IMG/VR virus record: IMGVR_UViG_3300037840_000153
Location: 1 to 41,243 of that record
Reading direction: 5' to 3' (one strand)
Source: a virus
Length of the DNA stretch: 41,243 nt
Position numbers and translations under genes: made by a program. The notes under the pieces are model-generated. The model had not been told where the DNA came from. It made no database searches and saw nothing but the letters and a program-made list of their open reading frames with translations. Of this stretch, positions 5,558 through 29,835 are shown piece by piece (position 1 is the first letter of the stretch; the number at the start of each line of letters is the position of its first letter).

Positions 5558-6226
5558 TCACGCCGAAGTAGGGCTATCGACCAATGTAAGCCGACGCAAT
5601 TCCCTGGCAGGCGTACCGACGACCGTTATTCCGGGCGGCACGTCCTTCACCACGACCGCGCCCGCGCCGACCATAGCGCCTTCACCAATCGTCGTTTTCA
5701 TAATTGTCGAATGCCCCCCGATTGTCGCGTAATCGTTCACGGTCACTTCGCCCATGAGCGACGCCCCCGCCATGATGGTCACGCCGTTTCCGACGACACT
5801 TTGATGCTCGACCGAGCTTGTCGCGTGCATCATGCACCAATCGCCGATGGTCACTTCGTCGCCGATGTTGACGTTGGTCAGGATTTGCGCGCCTTTGCCG
5901 ATTTTTGTTTCTTCGCCGATGTGGGCGGTTTGGTGGATGATCGAGACAGGCTCCAAGCCTAAGTAAACCAGTTGTTCGGAAAATTCGGCGCGGCGCTTAC
6001 CGTTTGACCCTATAGCCACGATGAAATGGGAGCAGAAACGGCGCGCTTCGGAGAATGCCTTGTCCATATCGTGATACAGTAAACAGTTTGGCCACGGCCT
6101 CGTGGTCGTCTGGTCGAAATCCCACACCACGGGAAACTCGTGTAGCACGCCGACGTGCGGTTCGGCCATGAGGACGCGGCGCAGAATGCGGGCGTGGCAG
6201 CGGGCGCCGATGGTAAAGATTTTCAT
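5558..6226 (-). CDS. Sugar O-/N-acyltransferase, NeuD/PglD family
   Basis: 222 residues from the ATG at 6226 (AGGACGAC just upstream). The N-terminal third is a small Rossmann-like domain (KIFTIGARCH...). The C-terminal part is a left-handed beta-helix with hexapeptide repeats (IGEETKIGKGAQI, IGDEVTIGDW, VVGNGVTIMAGA, IGEGAMVGAGAVVVKDVPPG) and the closing VGTPARE typical of the family. Such enzymes acetylate sugars or UDP-amino sugars in surface-polysaccharide or glycan pathways. In the same strand upstream lie a DegT-type aminotransferase and a WbuC-type cupin, so it probably modifies the amino group or a hydroxyl of the same sugar. Confidence 0.85.
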   Translation of the reverse strand: MKIFTIGARCHARILRRVLMAEPHVGVLHEFPVVWDFDQTTTRPWPNCLLYHDMDKAFSEARRFCSHFIVAIGSNGKRRAEFSEQLVYLGLEPVSIIHQTAHIGEETKIGKGAQILTNVNIGDEVTIGDWCMMHATSSVEHQSVVGNGVTIMAGASLMGEVTVNDYATIGGHSTIMKTTIGEGAMVGAGAVVVKDVPPGITVVGTPARELRRLTLVDSPTSA

Positions 6227-6236
6227 TGTCGTCCTA

Positions 6237-6431
6237 TCATCGCCTGTTTGATCGAGTGTAAGCAAACACGAGAAACCCGAAGGGGCCGACGATTGCGCCG
6301 TCGATCACAATTATAAGAAGCGTCACAAAGCCCGTACCAAGATCAGCATCGTCAAAGCATTCCCACATAGCCAACGTAGTAGTGACCCAGCCTGTTATGA
6401 TCCAAAGCCAAATGAATGCTTCGTCGCTCAT
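6237..6431 (-). CDS. Two-span small membrane protein
   Basis: 64 residues with hydrophobic segments at about 5-22 and 34-56, separated by an acidic loop (ECFDDADLG), ending in a basic YTRSNRR tail. It is encoded 10 nt upstream of the acyltransferase start and downstream of the small regulator gene. Only a weak ribosome site (GGGAC) is visible. Function unknown; it could be a partner of the glycan enzymes or an unrelated phage membrane protein. Confidence 0.55.
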   Translation of the reverse strand: MSDEAFIWLWIITGWVTTTLAMWECFDDADLGTGFVTLLIIVIDGAIVGPFGFLVFAYTRSNRR

Positions 6432-6483
6432 GGCGCGATTAGTCCCGTGTTACGCACACTTCAGCCCTTCCATCCACGCCGCA

Positions 6484-6696
6484 TCACGAAACATATTCCC
6501 AAGGATTAAGTCCCCAATATCTGCAAATATAAATGAAGTGCGCCGCTTCGACGGGACGCCCTCTCTCGGCTCTCGCGAACGTCGAGTGATTGATTTTCGA
6601 TTTTCGCGCCGCCTCACGCAATCCCAAGCCGTCCAAGCTGCGAGTCGCCTTCAATTCACGGCCGAACTTTCGCCAATGCAACCGAGGTCTTTTCAT
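6484..6696 (-). CDS. Small Cro/CI-type helix-turn-helix protein
   Basis: About 70 residues from the ATG at 6696, which overlaps the cupin stop codon as ATGA and so implies coupled translation. The sequence LGLREAARKSKINHSTFARAERGR is a recognisable XRE-type helix-turn-helix, and the end (ICRYWGLNPWEYV) resembles the last helix of that fold. It is unusual to find such a regulator inside a sugar-enzyme operon; it may control this cassette. An ATG at 6717 would extend it by 7 residues. Confidence 0.7.
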   Translation of the reverse strand: MKRPRLHWRKFGRELKATRSLDGLGLREAARKSKINHSTFARAERGRPVEAAHFIYICRYWGLNPWEYVS

Positions 6697-7178
6697 GCCT
6701 TCAATCCCTCTATCCACGCCGCGAGTTCACTTTCCTGCGGCGCCCACGGCGAAATTTCCATATTCTTTCCAGCGATAAACGGGCCGTTTGTGGTTTCGTG
6801 GACTACTACCACGTTATCAAGCGGAATAACCGTATGCCAGATCGGCGCAGCCATGCGGAAGACCGTAGGGAGGGCGTGCCAGCCAGGATCACCAAGCATG
6901 ATGCGACGGCTTTCGTTGCCGGCGTCGTCGAACATGACCACCAATACGCGCCCTTTGAGGACGTGCATCGATTCGCTTTTGCCGACGTGACGATGCGGCA
7001 TATTCAGCGAATCACCCCAGAAGGCGATAATCATTTCGTGCAACAGGTCATCGTCGGAGTTGTGCAAGTTCAATCGGGCGCGGCGTTTTGGTTCGCCGGC
7101 AGCAGCTTCGACGAGCATGGAGATTGTGGCGCCGTCCACCTCAATGATAGGTCCGATGTTGCGGAATACGGCGGTCAT
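6693..7178 (-). CDS. WbuC-type cupin protein
   Basis: 161 residues. The segment PHRHVGKSESMHVLKGRVLVVMFDDAG (about 61-87) is the metal-binding cupin core seen in the WbuC family, with His residues in place, followed by WHALPTVFRMAAPIWHTV. WbuC-type proteins occur in O-antigen and capsule clusters; their exact reaction is uncertain. ATG overlaps the stop of the DegT gene (ATGA) and its own stop overlaps the next start, so it is the middle of a tightly coupled set. Confidence 0.8.
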   Translation of the reverse strand: MTAVFRNIGPIIEVDGATISMLVEAAAGEPKRRARLNLHNSDDDLLHEMIIAFWGDSLNMPHRHVGKSESMHVLKGRVLVVMFDDAGNESRRIMLGDPGWHALPTVFRMAAPIWHTVIPLDNVVVVHETTNGPFIAGKNMEISPWAPQESELAAWIEGLKA

Positions 7179-8311
7179 CTATAAAAATCCGCAATACTAT
7201 TGACCACGTGCCATATCTGGCCGTTCGTCAGTTTCTCGTGAACCGGGATGCATAGAACGCGACTCATCAGATAGGCCGCGTGCGACCATGTTCCCCGCGC
7301 GTTGTGCTTGTAGAACGGCTGCTGCGGCATCAGGAACGGATGTTGAATCTTGGTTTCGATTCCCTTCTGCGCCAGAAAGTCTTTCAGCTTGTCGCGCTGA
7401 TCGCATTGGATCGTGTAGGTGTAATACGCCAGCTTTTCGTGGCCCCATTGCTTCGGCGTATCCACGAGGCCCTTGAGTTTTGAGTCATAGAATGCTGCGA
7501 TCTTGCGCCGTTTTTCCAGAAGCTCGTTGAATCGCGACAGTCTCACCAAAAGCATGGCGGCTTGGATCGTATCGAGGCGATGATTGCCTGAGAGGTTGTG
7601 GCAGACTTCCTTGTTTCTCACACCTTGATAGCGCAGCGGGTCGAGACGTTCGTAAATGTCCCTATCGTCTGTGACGATCATTCCAGCTTCACCCAACGCG
7701 GCAAGTGTCTTCATCGGGTTCATGCTGAAACACACCACGTCGCCCCGGAATCCTGCGGGCGAATCGTTAAACGTCGCCCCGAACGCTTGCGAGGCGTCTT
7801 CCACGACTTTGAGATTGTAGGTTTTGGCGATCATGCAGACGTGATCGATGGCGCAGATTCGTCCGGCCCAATGCACCGGCATGATGGCTTTGGTGCGCGG
7901 GGTGATAAGGGCTTTGATTTCCGTGGGGTCGATGTTGAGGTCGTCGCAGATGTCGCAGAAGACCGGCGTTGCTCCCACGAGGCTGACGGCGTTTGCGGTT
8001 GCGACAAAGGACAGTGCCGGAACGATAACCTCATCGCCTTTGCCAATGTTGAGGGCGCGGAGCGCGAGAACGAGCGCGTCTGTACCCGAACCTACGCCGA
8101 CTGCGTATTTGCGATTGCACCTTGCGGCGAAGGCGAGTTCGAGGGCGTGGACTTCGGGGCCATTGACCAGGCGGCCGTGTTTGAGAACGGTTTCTGTTGC
8201 GCGTAAAAGTTCGGCGCGCTCGGCTTCTGGAACGCGCAAGTCGAGAAACGGCACGTCAAGGACAAGTGACGGGTTTGTGTCATGAGAGGGGAGCGTGTCG
8301 GTGAGGGTCAT
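7175..8311 (-). CDS. DegT/DnrJ/EryC1/StrS-family sugar aminotransferase
   Basis: 378 residues, full length for the family. Hallmarks: GSGTDALVLALRAL (75-88), EVIVPALSFVATANAV (94-109), EDASQAFGA (171-179, Asp contacting the PLP ring nitrogen) and FSMNPMKTLAALGEAG, with the PLP-binding lysine at K201. These enzymes transfer an amino group to a nucleotide-linked keto-sugar. The product would be an amino sugar that the NeuD/PglD-type enzyme encoded downstream could acylate. The start lies within a degenerate border palindrome (copy 3). Confidence 0.9.
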   Translation of the reverse strand: MTLTDTLPSHDTNPSLVLDVPFLDLRVPEAERAELLRATETVLKHGRLVNGPEVHALELAFAARCNRKYAVGVGSGTDALVLALRALNIGKGDEVIVPALSFVATANAVSLVGATPVFCDICDDLNIDPTEIKALITPRTKAIMPVHWAGRICAIDHVCMIAKTYNLKVVEDASQAFGATFNDSPAGFRGDVVCFSMNPMKTLAALGEAGMIVTDDRDIYERLDPLRYQGVRNKEVCHNLSGNHRLDTIQAAMLLVRLSRFNELLEKRRKIAAFYDSKLKGLVDTPKQWGHEKLAYYTYTIQCDQRDKLKDFLAQKGIETKIQHPFLMPQQPFYKHNARGTWSHAAYLMSRVLCIPVHEKLTNGQIWHVVNSIADFYR

Positions 8312-8320
8312 CGGTCACCG
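8279..8320 (-). repeat. Border palindrome copy 3, degenerate
   Basis: Reads CGGTGACCGATGACCC ... CCTCTCATGACA on the leftward strand. Its left TGA is the stop codon of the glycosyltransferase gene and its internal ATG is the start of the aminotransferase gene. It lacks GANTC. Confidence 0.55.
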
Positions 8321-9262
8321 TCGCGCCGCGCGCCCATTGCCGCGTTTCGCCTTAACGTTTCGTTTCGTCACGGCCGCAGCCCGCGCAATGAATTCCTTCG
8401 GCGCTACGTCTTCGGCGACAGCAACGGCCTCAGGCCGCGGGAAGTCAATAATCTGAATCGGCTGTTCTATCGGCGGCGCAAGCACCAACTGCCGCGACTG
8501 TTCCACCGCCGCAATCTGCTGCGCCTCGATTTGCTGAGCAATCGCCGCTTGCTGTTCTGCAATCGCATTCTGTTGAGTGACGTGTTCCAGATAGCACGCG
8601 CCGTAATCATAAGGCCCGACGTGCGAGATTCGGTAGCCCACTGCCGCCCACACTTGGCCGCCGCATTGCCGCCAGCGAATGCAGAACGACAGGTCTTCGC
8701 TGATGCATCCCCTATCCGCAATCACCATCTTGTCGAAGACGCGAAGCAAGCGATTGGCGCCGGCCGATTGCAGGATTTTCGCGTAGGGCTGTAGCGCGAT
8801 CTTGGTGTCCACAAGTTCGGGAAATTTCTGCAACATGACTGAGATAACGTCGCGGCGAATCAGCGTGCAGCCCATGCCGACGCCTTCGACTTCCATAAAG
8901 TTACCGCGCCGTTGGGTTTCTTTTTCTCCGGTTCCCGATCCGGCCCAAGAGGTCGGAAGATTGCGCTGCGGATAGATCGCTCCGACAATTGGTTCGTCGA
9001 AGTGCATCATGTCGAGAATCATTTCGGGGGCAAAACCCATGTCGGAATCGATGAACAACAGATATTGCACGTCCGGCATGGTGTCGTACCAGATTGTCGT
9101 CGCCATCGAGCGCAGTTCGGCAATGTCGGGAAATGACAGCGTCGAGACTGATCCGGCAATGGACTTCTGCGCAAACGCTTGTTGCAAGGCGTGCGTGGTC
9201 ATGAAGGTTGCGGCCGAAATGATTTGGCCGAAGCCGGGGACGAACATGAAGACTTTGCGCAT
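8315..9262 (-). CDS. Glycosyltransferase, GT-A fold type
   Basis: 315 residues. LLFIDSDMGF (68-77) carries the D-x-D motif (D72, D74) that binds metal and nucleotide-sugar in GT-A enzymes. Further on, EDLSFCIRWRQCGGQVWA and a later ISHVG match the acceptor/catalytic segments of related family-2-like transferases. The last 85 residues are a Gln/Ala-rich coiled-coil followed by a very basic tail (KRNVKAKRGNGRAARR) that may bind nucleic acid or a partner. It is followed directly by the amino-sugar enzymes and so probably uses that sugar. Confidence 0.78.
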   Translation of the reverse strand: MRKVFMFVPGFGQIISAATFMTTHALQQAFAQKSIAGSVSTLSFPDIAELRSMATTIWYDTMPDVQYLLFIDSDMGFAPEMILDMMHFDEPIVGAIYPQRNLPTSWAGSGTGEKETQRRGNFMEVEGVGMGCTLIRRDVISVMLQKFPELVDTKIALQPYAKILQSAGANRLLRVFDKMVIADRGCISEDLSFCIRWRQCGGQVWAAVGYRISHVGPYDYGACYLEHVTQQNAIAEQQAAIAQQIEAQQIAAVEQSRQLVLAPPIEQPIQIIDFPRPEAVAVAEDVAPKEFIARAAAVTKRNVKAKRGNGRAARR

Positions 9263-13715: not shown

Positions 13716-13749
13716 CCTAAAACACGCGAAGTTGAACAGTTAAGATTTG

Positions 13750-13783
13750 TGTCACGAGAGACAGGGACTACGGTGCGGTCACC
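13750..13783 (-). repeat. Border palindrome copy 8, short
   Basis: Leftward strand reads GGTGACCGCACCG ... GTCTCTCGTGACA. The left arm lacks GANTC and the loop is short, as in copies 12 and 22. It faces copy 9 across three genes. Confidence 0.75.
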
Positions 13784-27092: not shown

Positions 27093-27557
27093 TTACTGCC
27101 CCTTACTATCCGGCATCGCCAGCGGCCCCAACGTGCCGCGATAGCTCGGCATGTCTTTGATTCCAAGCTGCATTCGTGCGTCGAAATGCGAATCGGTTCG
27201 GCGCTTTACGAGCACCAGCGATTCACAATCCATATCGAAAATCGGTTTGTCCATCTTTTTGAAATATTCAATCTCGCTTTTGACGCCGTCGCTCGTGTCC
27301 CAGCCGTCCATGTGTGCGACAATCAAACAATCGCAGCGTTCCATCATGACGTGGTTGTGCGGATACCAGAGGTTCAAATCCACCGGATCAAGGTCACCGT
27401 ACACTGCGAGCGGATGACAGTGAACGATTGGGCAATATGTAAAAATGCCCGCTGTTCTTAAGCGGGCTGCGATACGAGCTACGTCTTGGAATGCTGCGAC
27501 AAGTCCTTTCTCGTAACGAGAATATGGACTGCCGAGATAGGCCAATAAATTCGCCAC
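27093..27557 (-). CDS. DUF1937-like protein, nucleoside deoxyribosyltransferase-type fold
   Basis: 154 residues, GTG start with GGAGGGGAAGAAA before it. It begins LAYLGSPYSRYEKGLVAAFQDVARIAARLRTAGIFTYCPIVHCHPLA, the DUF1937 pattern related to nucleoside 2-deoxyribosyltransferases, then RCDCLIVAHMDGWDTSDGVKSEIEYFKKMDKPIF, where a catalytic-type E is expected (EIEYF). Such proteins may act on nucleotide sugars or bases; the substrate is unknown. Border palindrome 18 lies 20 nt upstream. Confidence 0.78.
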   Translation of the reverse strand: MANLLAYLGSPYSRYEKGLVAAFQDVARIAARLRTAGIFTYCPIVHCHPLAVYGDLDPVDLNLWYPHNHVMMERCDCLIVAHMDGWDTSDGVKSEIEYFKKMDKPIFDMDCESLVLVKRRTDSHFDARMQLGIKDMPSYRGTLGPLAMPDSKGQ

Positions 27558-27809: not shown

Positions 27810-28031
27810 CTACGCTCCTAAAACTCGAACTTCCTTACCTTCCACTGATCGCAGATGGTCGATTGCGAGTGTGAGATTTGCAACCGTTTGCAGGTAGTTC
27901 CGATACCGTTTCTTGATGTTGAGATATTCCTTGGTGCCTTCGAGGCGGTCTAGGGCTTTGGCGATTGTTTCCGCGCGGCGCAGAGCGTTGGCGCGTCGTT
28001 TGGATAAGAGAAGGATAGGGTTCTGTGTCAC
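27810..28031 (-). CDS. Small helical protein starting at a GTG inside border palindrome 19
   Basis: 73 residues (TQNPILLLSKRRANALRRAETIAKALDRLEG...). Two or three amphipathic helices. The only early start is GTG at 28031, in the right arm of copy 19, with no ribosome site upstream. The gene upstream ends in the same repeat and overlaps it (stop at 28028). Function unknown. Confidence 0.55.
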   Translation of the reverse strand: MTQNPILLLSKRRANALRRAETIAKALDRLEGTKEYLNIKKRYRNYLQTVANLTLAIDHLRSVEGKEVRVLGA

Positions 28032-28070
28032 GAGAGTTTGTTCCCGGTGGATAGACCGGACTCGGTCACC
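28026..28070 (-). repeat. Border palindrome copy 19
   Basis: Leftward strand reads GGTGACCGAGTCCGG ... GAACAAACTCTCGTGACA. It encodes the VTESGLSTGNKLS tail of the upstream gene and the GTG start of the next one. Confidence 0.9.
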
Positions 28071-28372
28071 GTTGCGCCTGTGCTTTCGTATTTGGCCTTA
28101 AGGCGCTGAAATTCCGCGCGATCCCGCTTTTCGCCTTCGGCCTCGCGGTTTACCCTGTCGGCTTCATAAATTCGCTCGTTGTAGAGGTCCATCGCAATCT
28201 CGACCTGCGCACGGAACCAATCCACAATGCGCTGGTCGATGCCGTCGCCGTTGTCGGACCAATTGCACCAGCCGTAATCGTAGTCGGCGATATGGCCGTG
28301 CATTTCAAAATGCGCTGTGATCACGGGCCGGTGGTCACCCACGACGCGCCCCCAATGTTTCACGTGAAACAA
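28028..28372 (-). CDS. Hypothetical protein whose N-terminus lies on parS
   Basis: 114 residues if the TTG at 28372 is used (GGAG 8 nt upstream); TTG at 28378 is an alternative. It begins FHVKH, encoded by the parS palindrome. The body is acidic with many Asp, Trp and Arg residues (HIADYDYGWCNWSDNGDGIDQRIVDWFRAQ) and a charged helix. The last 13 residues (VTESGLSTGNKLS) come from border palindrome 19. Function unknown. Confidence 0.55.
   Translation of the reverse strand: MFHVKHWGRVVGDHRPVITAHFEMHGHIADYDYGWCNWSDNGDGIDQRIVDWFRAQVEIAMDLYNERIYEADRVNREAEGEKRDRAEFQRLKAKYESTGATVTESGLSTGNKLS
28356..28371. promoter_or_regulatory. parS: Perfect parS centromere site
   Basis: The 16-bp palindrome TGTTTCACGTGAAACA is identical to the bacterial chromosomal parS consensus bound by ParB. 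It lies inside the start of a leftward gene, 131 bp from the end of the repressor gene. No ParA or ParB gene is in the window, so host ParB is the likely partner. ParB loads at parS as a CTP-dependent clamp and spreads along DNA. Confidence 0.85.
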
Positions 28373-28396
28373 AGCCAAATCTCCGAAAAATCAACG

Positions 28397-28724: not shown

Positions 28725-28732
28725 CGCTTGAC
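28720..28732. promoter_or_regulatory. Operator candidate 1 (GTCA-N5-TGAC)
   Basis: GTCAACGCTTGAC, palindromic with 5-bp arms around CGC. It overlaps the -35 boxes of both divergent promoters. Same spacing as operator 2, 17 bp away centre to centre. Confidence 0.55.
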
Positions 28733-28755
28733 AATCGTCAGGAAATGACTATTCT
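28728..28755 (+). promoter_or_regulatory. Predicted rightward early promoter
   Basis: TTGACA (28728-28733), 16 nt, TATTCT (28750-28755), a good sigma70 match. It is the only clear promoter seen for the rightward block and is covered by both operator candidates. Confidence 0.65.
28737..28749. promoter_or_regulatory. Operator candidate 2 (GTCA-N5-TGAC)
   Basis: GTCAGGAAATGAC, with 4-bp arms, fills the spacer of the rightward promoter directly before its -10 box. A repressor bound here would block that promoter. Confidence 0.5.
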
Positions 28756-29218: not shown

Positions 29219-29278
29219 TGTTGGGTCATTCTGGATCATGGGCTTCCTAATCGACACGGAAATTCATACGACCGCTGA
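29219..29278 (+). repeat. 60-bp border repeat, family 2, copy a
   Basis: Starts TGTTGGGTCATTCTGGATCA and ends with ACACGGAAATTCATACGACC plus GCTGA; the middle 13 nt differ from copy b. It precedes the gene at 29290. Confidence 0.85.
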
Positions 29279-29289
29279 GGGGAAAGACA

Positions 29290-29748
29290 ATGAGCGACGA
29301 TACAATCCAAGGCGAATTCACCGTCATCACCGAACCGACGCGCAATGACGCGCTGCAGGGGCTTATCGAGACGCTACGGCGTGCGTCCGGTTCGAGGCAC
29401 AACGCAATTGCCACGGTGCATCGGGAAGCCGTGCAGGCGCTTGCCAGGCTCTATGTGCCGCATATCTCGGTGTCACCATCACCGGATCAGTTCCGGGATA
29501 TGGCGGACTTTCTCACCCATTGGGCGCGGATTGCGGATCGGGTGTTGAAAATCGTGGGGGAGGAAGCCAAGGCGAATTCGTGTGAGAACGTCAACGCCGG
29601 TTTGTTCGACGGGCAGTTCCAGGCGACGCTTGAGGGATATGCGCTGTTCGAGCTTGAGAAATGCGCCGAAGGGCTGCAGGCGGAATATGACGAATACGAA
29701 GGCTTCGATCCTGACGACGATTATGAGGATCGGCGCGCTACGGATTAG
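29290..29748 (+). CDS. Hypothetical protein flanked by family 2 repeats
   Basis: 152 residues, helical, with an acidic C-terminus (EYDEYEGFDPDDDYEDRRATD). The middle (IATVHREAVQALARLYVPHISVSPSPDQFRDMADFLTHWARIADRVLKIVGEEAK) looks like a folded helical bundle. GAGGGGA before the ATG. Direct repeats on both sides suggest it was inserted as a unit. Function unknown. Confidence 0.65.
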   Translation: MSDDTIQGEFTVITEPTRNDALQGLIETLRRASGSRHNAIATVHREAVQALARLYVPHISVSPSPDQFRDMADFLTHWARIADRVLKIVGEEAKANSCENVNAGLFDGQFQATLEGYALFELEKCAEGLQAEYDEYEGFDPDDDYEDRRATD

Positions 29749-29749
29749 G

Positions 29750-29810
29750 GTGTTGGGTCATTCTGGATCACGGATGGCGTAGGCGACACGGAAATTCATA
29801 CGACCGCTGA
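29750..29810 (+). repeat. 60-bp border repeat, family 2, copy b
   Basis: Same ends as copy a in the same orientation, with a different centre. It starts 2 nt after the stop of the gene at 29290-29748. Confidence 0.85.
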
Positions 29811-29835
29811 AACAACAAGATAGTTGGAAACTGAA

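Follow-up and report, generated by a model that had tools for sequence, protein, structure and literature searches.

A host-type parS site, apparently under selection, in the control region of a phage with no detectable ParA or ParB

The viral record analysed here, from a soil phage (41,243 bases without terminal repeats, taken whole and called the window in what follows) carries the 16-mer TGTTTCACGTGAAACA, which is identical to the parS site of bacterial chromosomes and lies next to a Cro-like gene. The interpretation that we favour, with a somewhat better than even chance of being right, is that this is a genuine parS of the host type, kept by selection, and that its role is most likely to load the ParB of the host for positioning or partition of the phage DNA while it is not integrated.

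An earlier note on this DNA, made from its letters, had described a perfect 16-base match to parS beside the phage control region that was very unlikely to be due to chance, and these statements were borne out. The 16 bp are those used as the chromosomal parS consensus in PMC10197239, a 16-mer of this kind is expected from base composition only about 6e-6 times per window, and the Cro-like gene is about 115 bp upstream in the minus-strand direction. In addition, no other perfect palindrome in the window reaches the 16 bp of TGTTTCACGTGAAACA. Its identity as parS can be held with high confidence, and it looks selected rather than produced by chance. A search for further sites found nothing better than three mismatches elsewhere in the window; the second-best match, TGTGTCACGAGAGACA at 13748-13763, was rejected as a second parS because of its three mismatches and its lack of palindromic symmetry. 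No match was obtained when the 2.5 kb around the site were compared by blastn with named phages.

The features surrounding the site are collected in Table 1. Read on the minus strand, parS provides the codons TTG-TTT-CAC-GTG-AAA-CAT (MFHVKH) of a small gene starting with TTG at 28372, whose product begins with MFHVKHWGR. No Pfam family above the cut-off and no PHROG was found for this product; its residues 8-97 match at 71% a protein of the relative G001, which is encoded elsewhere in that genome and does not have the FHVKH start. The Cro-like protein has a 76% identical homologue in another relative, G079. A homologue of the 73-aa protein is fused to an HTH gene (see below) in L123 and, going by the visible reading frame, also in L206/L207. 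For the leader that separates the Cro gene from parS, the predicted RNA structure was not better than those of shuffled sequences.

Table 1. Coordinates of the parS site, of the neighbouring features and of an interspersed element in the window
Feature	Position	Strand	Remarks
parS, TGTTTCACGTGAAACA	28356..28371	.	exact 16/16 consensus; host-type copies in Rhizobiales genomes
Small gene without assigned function	28028..28372	-	first codons are parS (MFHVKH...)
GGAG, likely ribosome-binding site for the TTG at 28372	28381..28384	-	8 nt upstream, from sequence
Cro/repressor-like HTH protein, 67 aa	28487..28690	-	first gene of the leftward operon; HTH_3 / HTH_31, phage transcriptional regulator PHROGs
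73-aa protein, KALDRLEG...KEVRVLG motif	27810..28031	-	homologue downstream of parS in relatives
DUF1937 / nucleoside 2-deoxyribosyltransferase-like protein	27093..27557	-	conserved anchor gene of the locus
Promoter-like hexamers, rightward operon	28728..28755	+	~0.36 kb from parS; 1 found vs 0.9 expected by chance
Copies of the ~45-bp element	4327, 5505, 9324, 9766, 12749, 12983, 15401, 17723, 17860, 21964, 23788, 24166, 27581, 28067, 28991, 31953, 40118, 40140

Scanning IMG/VR with the terminase yielded 32 relatives, and a second scan, in which the query was the HTH protein containing parS, added L206 and L207. Absence from close relatives had been named in the earlier note as an observation that would speak against the site, and on this point the outcome is mixed, though for the most part favourable. 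With near-identical genomes grouped, exact parS is present in five distinct cases (the window, G001, G002/G003, G079 and G080), and the terminase identity of the parS-bearing relatives to the window is 57-84%. Among the individual records, the exact site was found in L123 and L124 (84% terminase identity; near-identical at the locus and counted once), in the L122/L135 record (57%), and in both L206 and L207. On the unfavourable side, the site has decayed to TGTTTCACGTGGAAAA, with two mismatches, in G004 (L125; 84%), and it is absent from G005 (78%) and G015 (65%), in which the HTH gene is absent too. In terms of loci, L126 and L137, which have no HTH gene, do not contain the site, and the remaining, more distant terminase relatives have no parS within two mismatches.

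The gene order in the relatives is Cro-like gene, HTH gene, KALERLEG protein and DUF1937 protein, and parS forms the VSRET codons in the C-terminal part of the HTH protein. The site occurs in every one of the six records that have this HTH gene, and in five it is exact. In L135 (G001), the bases that encode VSRET in the HTH gene double as the beginning of the gene that follows, read as MFHVKH; the window lacks the HTH gene, and its parS opens an unrelated gene. The exact site is located directly downstream of the Cro-like gene in the window, G001, G002/G003 and G079. In G080, where no Cro-like gene was detected by similarity, it lies between the same downstream genes as in the other relatives. 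The position of the site is kept, while its reading frame and the neighbouring genes change. The fact that parS has the same coordinate, 28356, in G002 and in the window was rejected as meaningful, being a coincidence of contig ends; the distances from terminase to parS differ.

A repeated sequence of the window is an interspersed element of about 45 bp, GTGACCGARTCCGG(T)-N~20-ACTCTCGTGACCCA, of which there are 18 copies on both strands (Table 1), and which is also present in G002. Several copies sit where one gene ends and the next begins, and contribute the stop and start codons. One copy is situated at the parS-less junction of L126, and another lies in front of the relocated FHVKH-gene homologue in L122; because of these two copies, the element may mark the exchange of gene cassettes. 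A leader-like repeat, GTGTTGGGTCATTCTGGATCAYG...CGACACGGAAATTCATACGACCGCTGA, occurs in front of successive early genes, once at 29223-29300 and once at 29755-29830. Finally, an apparent nucleotide-sugar cassette is located amid the structural genes (5558-9262), with a DegT/DnrJ aminotransferase (PF01041) and, as judged by eye, acetyltransferase-like and cupin-like proteins.

Selection on the 16-mer is suggested by two kinds of comparison. When the window is aligned with G079, the cro region matches over 250 bp at 78% identity; beyond it, only the exact 20-mer TGTTTCACGTGAAACATTGG, which contains parS, aligns, until similarity briefly resumes in the small gene that follows. Four HTH genes in which the site is exact share 67 conserved residues; in these genes, the codons for VSRET are identical at five of five positions and those for the other residues at 16 of 62, and the sole word of 10 or more bases common to the four genes is parS plus one extra T. 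If L125 is included, pairwise codon agreement is 42/42 inside VSRET and 569/1048 outside, although these comparisons are not independent trials because the HTH sequences are related. This codon pattern fits what selection acting on the DNA word predicts.

The earlier note had seen no par genes, and profile searches agree with it: neither ParB_N (PF02195) nor ParA (PF13614) was found in the window record. ParA was absent from all 11 records searched, which included the window, G001-G004, G079 and G080; ParB_N was absent from the window and from the tested parS-positive relatives (a scan set without G079 and G080), and the only ParB_N matches among the records of relatives came from two distant ones, both lacking parS. 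In the window and in the tested parS-positive relatives, parS is therefore unlinked to parAB genes. Judging from its relatives, the window record is probably a fragment of a genome of roughly 66 kb, and for this reason the absence of par genes outside the sequenced part rests on those relatives. G001 appears complete because of its 127-bp terminal repeats, and no parA or parB was found there. G001, G002 and G004 all encode a homologous tyrosine recombinase (integrase) and no ParA or ParB. Because of these integrases, the lineage is probably temperate and integrating, and the suggestion of a plasmid-like prophage is weakened.

As for the host, a single-sequence terminase scan of bacterial genomes revealed no prophage. 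A capsid profile scan of bacterial genomes found relatives in a Rhizobiales MAG (89%), in Rhizobium and Bosea (about 61%) and in other bins, and the nearest named phages by capsid include phages of Pelagibacter, Roseobacter and Caulobacter. The host is probably a Rhizobiales-type bacterium, an identification based on relatives. The phage contig in the Rhizobiales MAG is mosaic, with a terminase that is only 55% identical; parS was not found on this contig, nor within 10 kb on each side of the capsid genes in the bacterial loci fetched. The Rhizobiales MAG, Rhizobium and Bosea genomes holding these capsid relatives do contain exact parS sites, which look chromosomal where examined. Two are present in the MAG, one between rho and mnmE and one in rsmG/gidB beside parA (genes named by eye from their translations). 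The latter is read in the frame VSRET, so that the likeness drawn in the earlier note between the gene-start overlap (FHVKH) and bacterial parS sites inside coding sequence has a concrete counterpart.

The occurrence of the site is not confined to this lineage. Exact parS was found at 120 or more loci in IMG/VR, compared with 5 and 11 for two control palindromes having the same dinucleotides. Among 50,697 records of named phages, parS-holding 30-mers matched 388 and 352 records, and the controls, which had identical flanks, 5 and 9. The enrichment of host-type parS over dinucleotide-matched controls is thus at least 10-24-fold in IMG/VR and about 40-75-fold in named phages, the latter ratio being rough because it includes many near-duplicates, possible host DNA and near-exact matches. 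Of the large viral records bearing parS, 50 were chosen, and 4 of these have a ParB_N match. The commonest names among the parS-matching phages are Listeria, Microbacterium, Arthrobacter, Gordonia and Bacillus; Escherichia is not in the ten commonest names among the matches listed. Microbacterium Quhwahvirus phages have the exact parS within a gene for a DNA-binding/HTH protein, in the VSRET frame in the one checked; the sites of Listeria P100 and Gordonia Woes are away from annotated regulators. Five IMG/VR loci (L010, L017, L044, L053 and L063) contain 3-5 exact copies each within the stretch fetched; the two whose records were scanned, L010 and L063, gave no ParB_N match. The Gordonia phage Woes group (L227) has an intergenic parS-like site near the right end of the genome, at about 71.4 kb, which is common to many Gordonia terrae phages.

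ParB is known to load at parS with CTP and then to spread (PMC12704722); in Caulobacter, spreading from a single site covers at most about 2 kb (PMC5815017). By analogy, the ParB of the host would load on the phage parS as a CTP clamp and spread across roughly 2 kb of the neighbouring phage DNA. The circular, unintegrated phage DNA coated in this way would come under the control of the ParA/ParB (and polar or SMC) apparatus of the host and be positioned with the chromosome origin, and would thus reach the daughter cells before integration or lysis. Binding and spreading of ParB at the phage site, and partition as the resulting benefit, are what we infer from the comparisons above. The benefit of partition can be questioned because an integrase is present, and an integrated prophage is carried by the chromosome anyway. 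Other points that may count against partition are a possible fitness cost of the kind reported for Caulobacter, where an ectopic parS can lower fitness (PMC5815017), the fact that G005 and G015 manage without the site, and the potential weakness of one site as a centromere.

The main rival to positioning or partition is an effect of ParB on the immunity region: once loaded at parS, ParB would spread over the cro/left operon and the rightward promoter, biasing transcription and the lysis-lysogeny decision. We consider this, and with it the silencing or insulation suggested in the earlier note, possible but rather unlikely. It is consistent with the persistence of the site beside the cro-like gene despite turnover of the neighbours, with a promoter-like site close enough to be reached by ParB if it spreads from one site as far as in Caulobacter, and with the location of the Quhwahvirus parS, which is also in a gene for a DNA-binding protein. 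Silencing by P1 ParB, reportedly described by Rodionov in 1999 (a reference given in PMC5815017), is an established precedent. However, the Listeria P100 and Gordonia Woes sites show no such proximity to regulators, and the conserved place may reflect descent. More speculatively still, in many phages a host-type parS might act as a sensor or handle, and ParB on the immunity region might couple the lysis-lysogeny decision and inheritance to the segregation state of the host. No description of a ParB-dependent regulation layer in temperate phages was found in the literature searched. If the ParB of the host does act on phage DNA, the centromere system of the host would be a resource used by phages encoding none of it, and the reading of parS sites in metagenomes and prophages would change. 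The enrichment in ParB-less phages makes the idea testable in ordinary laboratory pairs, such as phi29 relatives and B. subtilis, or Microbacterium and Gordonia phages.

It appears improbable that the site is a functionless remnant, either of host rsmG/gidB-parA DNA or of chance coding sequence. The parS of host rsmG shares the VSRET frame, and the decay in G004 and the absence from G005 and G015 are the sole signs in favour so far; however, around the site the window and its relatives are similar over no more than 16-20 bp, the codons are fixed at the site only, and the site is maintained in several diverged genomes and in two reading frames. Even less probable is that parS serves to bring in the SMC/condensin of the host, which would compact or organise the DNA of the phage, or to titrate the ParB of the host: recruitment of SMC to an ectopic parS has been reported for Caulobacter (PMC5815017), but one site is unlikely to titrate ParB. 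Least credible is the view that the site serves a regulator of the phage, either the HTH protein or Cro, as its operator and equals parS by coincidence. This would suit a palindrome inside or beside HTH genes, but sits badly with the retention of the site in the window although its usual HTH gene is missing, with the different types of Cro-like protein (a first type, at 47%, in G001 and G002, a second in G079 and the window and a third in G004) next to an identical or nearly identical site, and with the enrichment of the 16-mer in phages of unrelated hosts.

Host-ParB loading for positioning or partition, our preferred interpretation, can be compared with several known systems. The chromosomal ParABS parS of the Rhizobiales/Caulobacter type has the same 16 bp and can also be embedded in coding sequence (host rsmG, VSRET), but the window site is on a phage, in single copy, away from parAB and beside a control region. 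Phage-plasmids with their own partition system, such as P1 and the extrachromosomal mycobacterial prophages (PMC7157519), likewise have a centromere site on phage DNA; in contrast to them, the window and the tested parS-positive relatives gave no ParA or ParB match. Microbacterium Quhwahvirus has the same exact parS, read as VSRET within a DNA-binding/HTH gene, but is an unrelated phage with an actinobacterial host, and the likeness is possibly convergent. In the literature searched, we found no papers on phage parS beyond phi29 and the phage-plasmids. The Bacillus phage phi29, which gave a near match to parS in the search of named phages, is entrapped in spores through Spo0J, as summarised in PMC9437464, citing Meijer et al. 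2005. A phage would here, too, exploit a chromosome-segregation protein of its host, as we propose from sequence, and as for phi29-type capture of host ParB, the window parS has no phage ParB alongside and bears signs of selection. However, phi29 is virulent and its capture amounts to spore entrapment, whereas the window phage is of temperate type, probably infecting an alphaproteobacterium, with one exact site in a conserved place. The window site apparently represents a variant of what phi29 does with the ParB of its host, with a conserved place in the control region.
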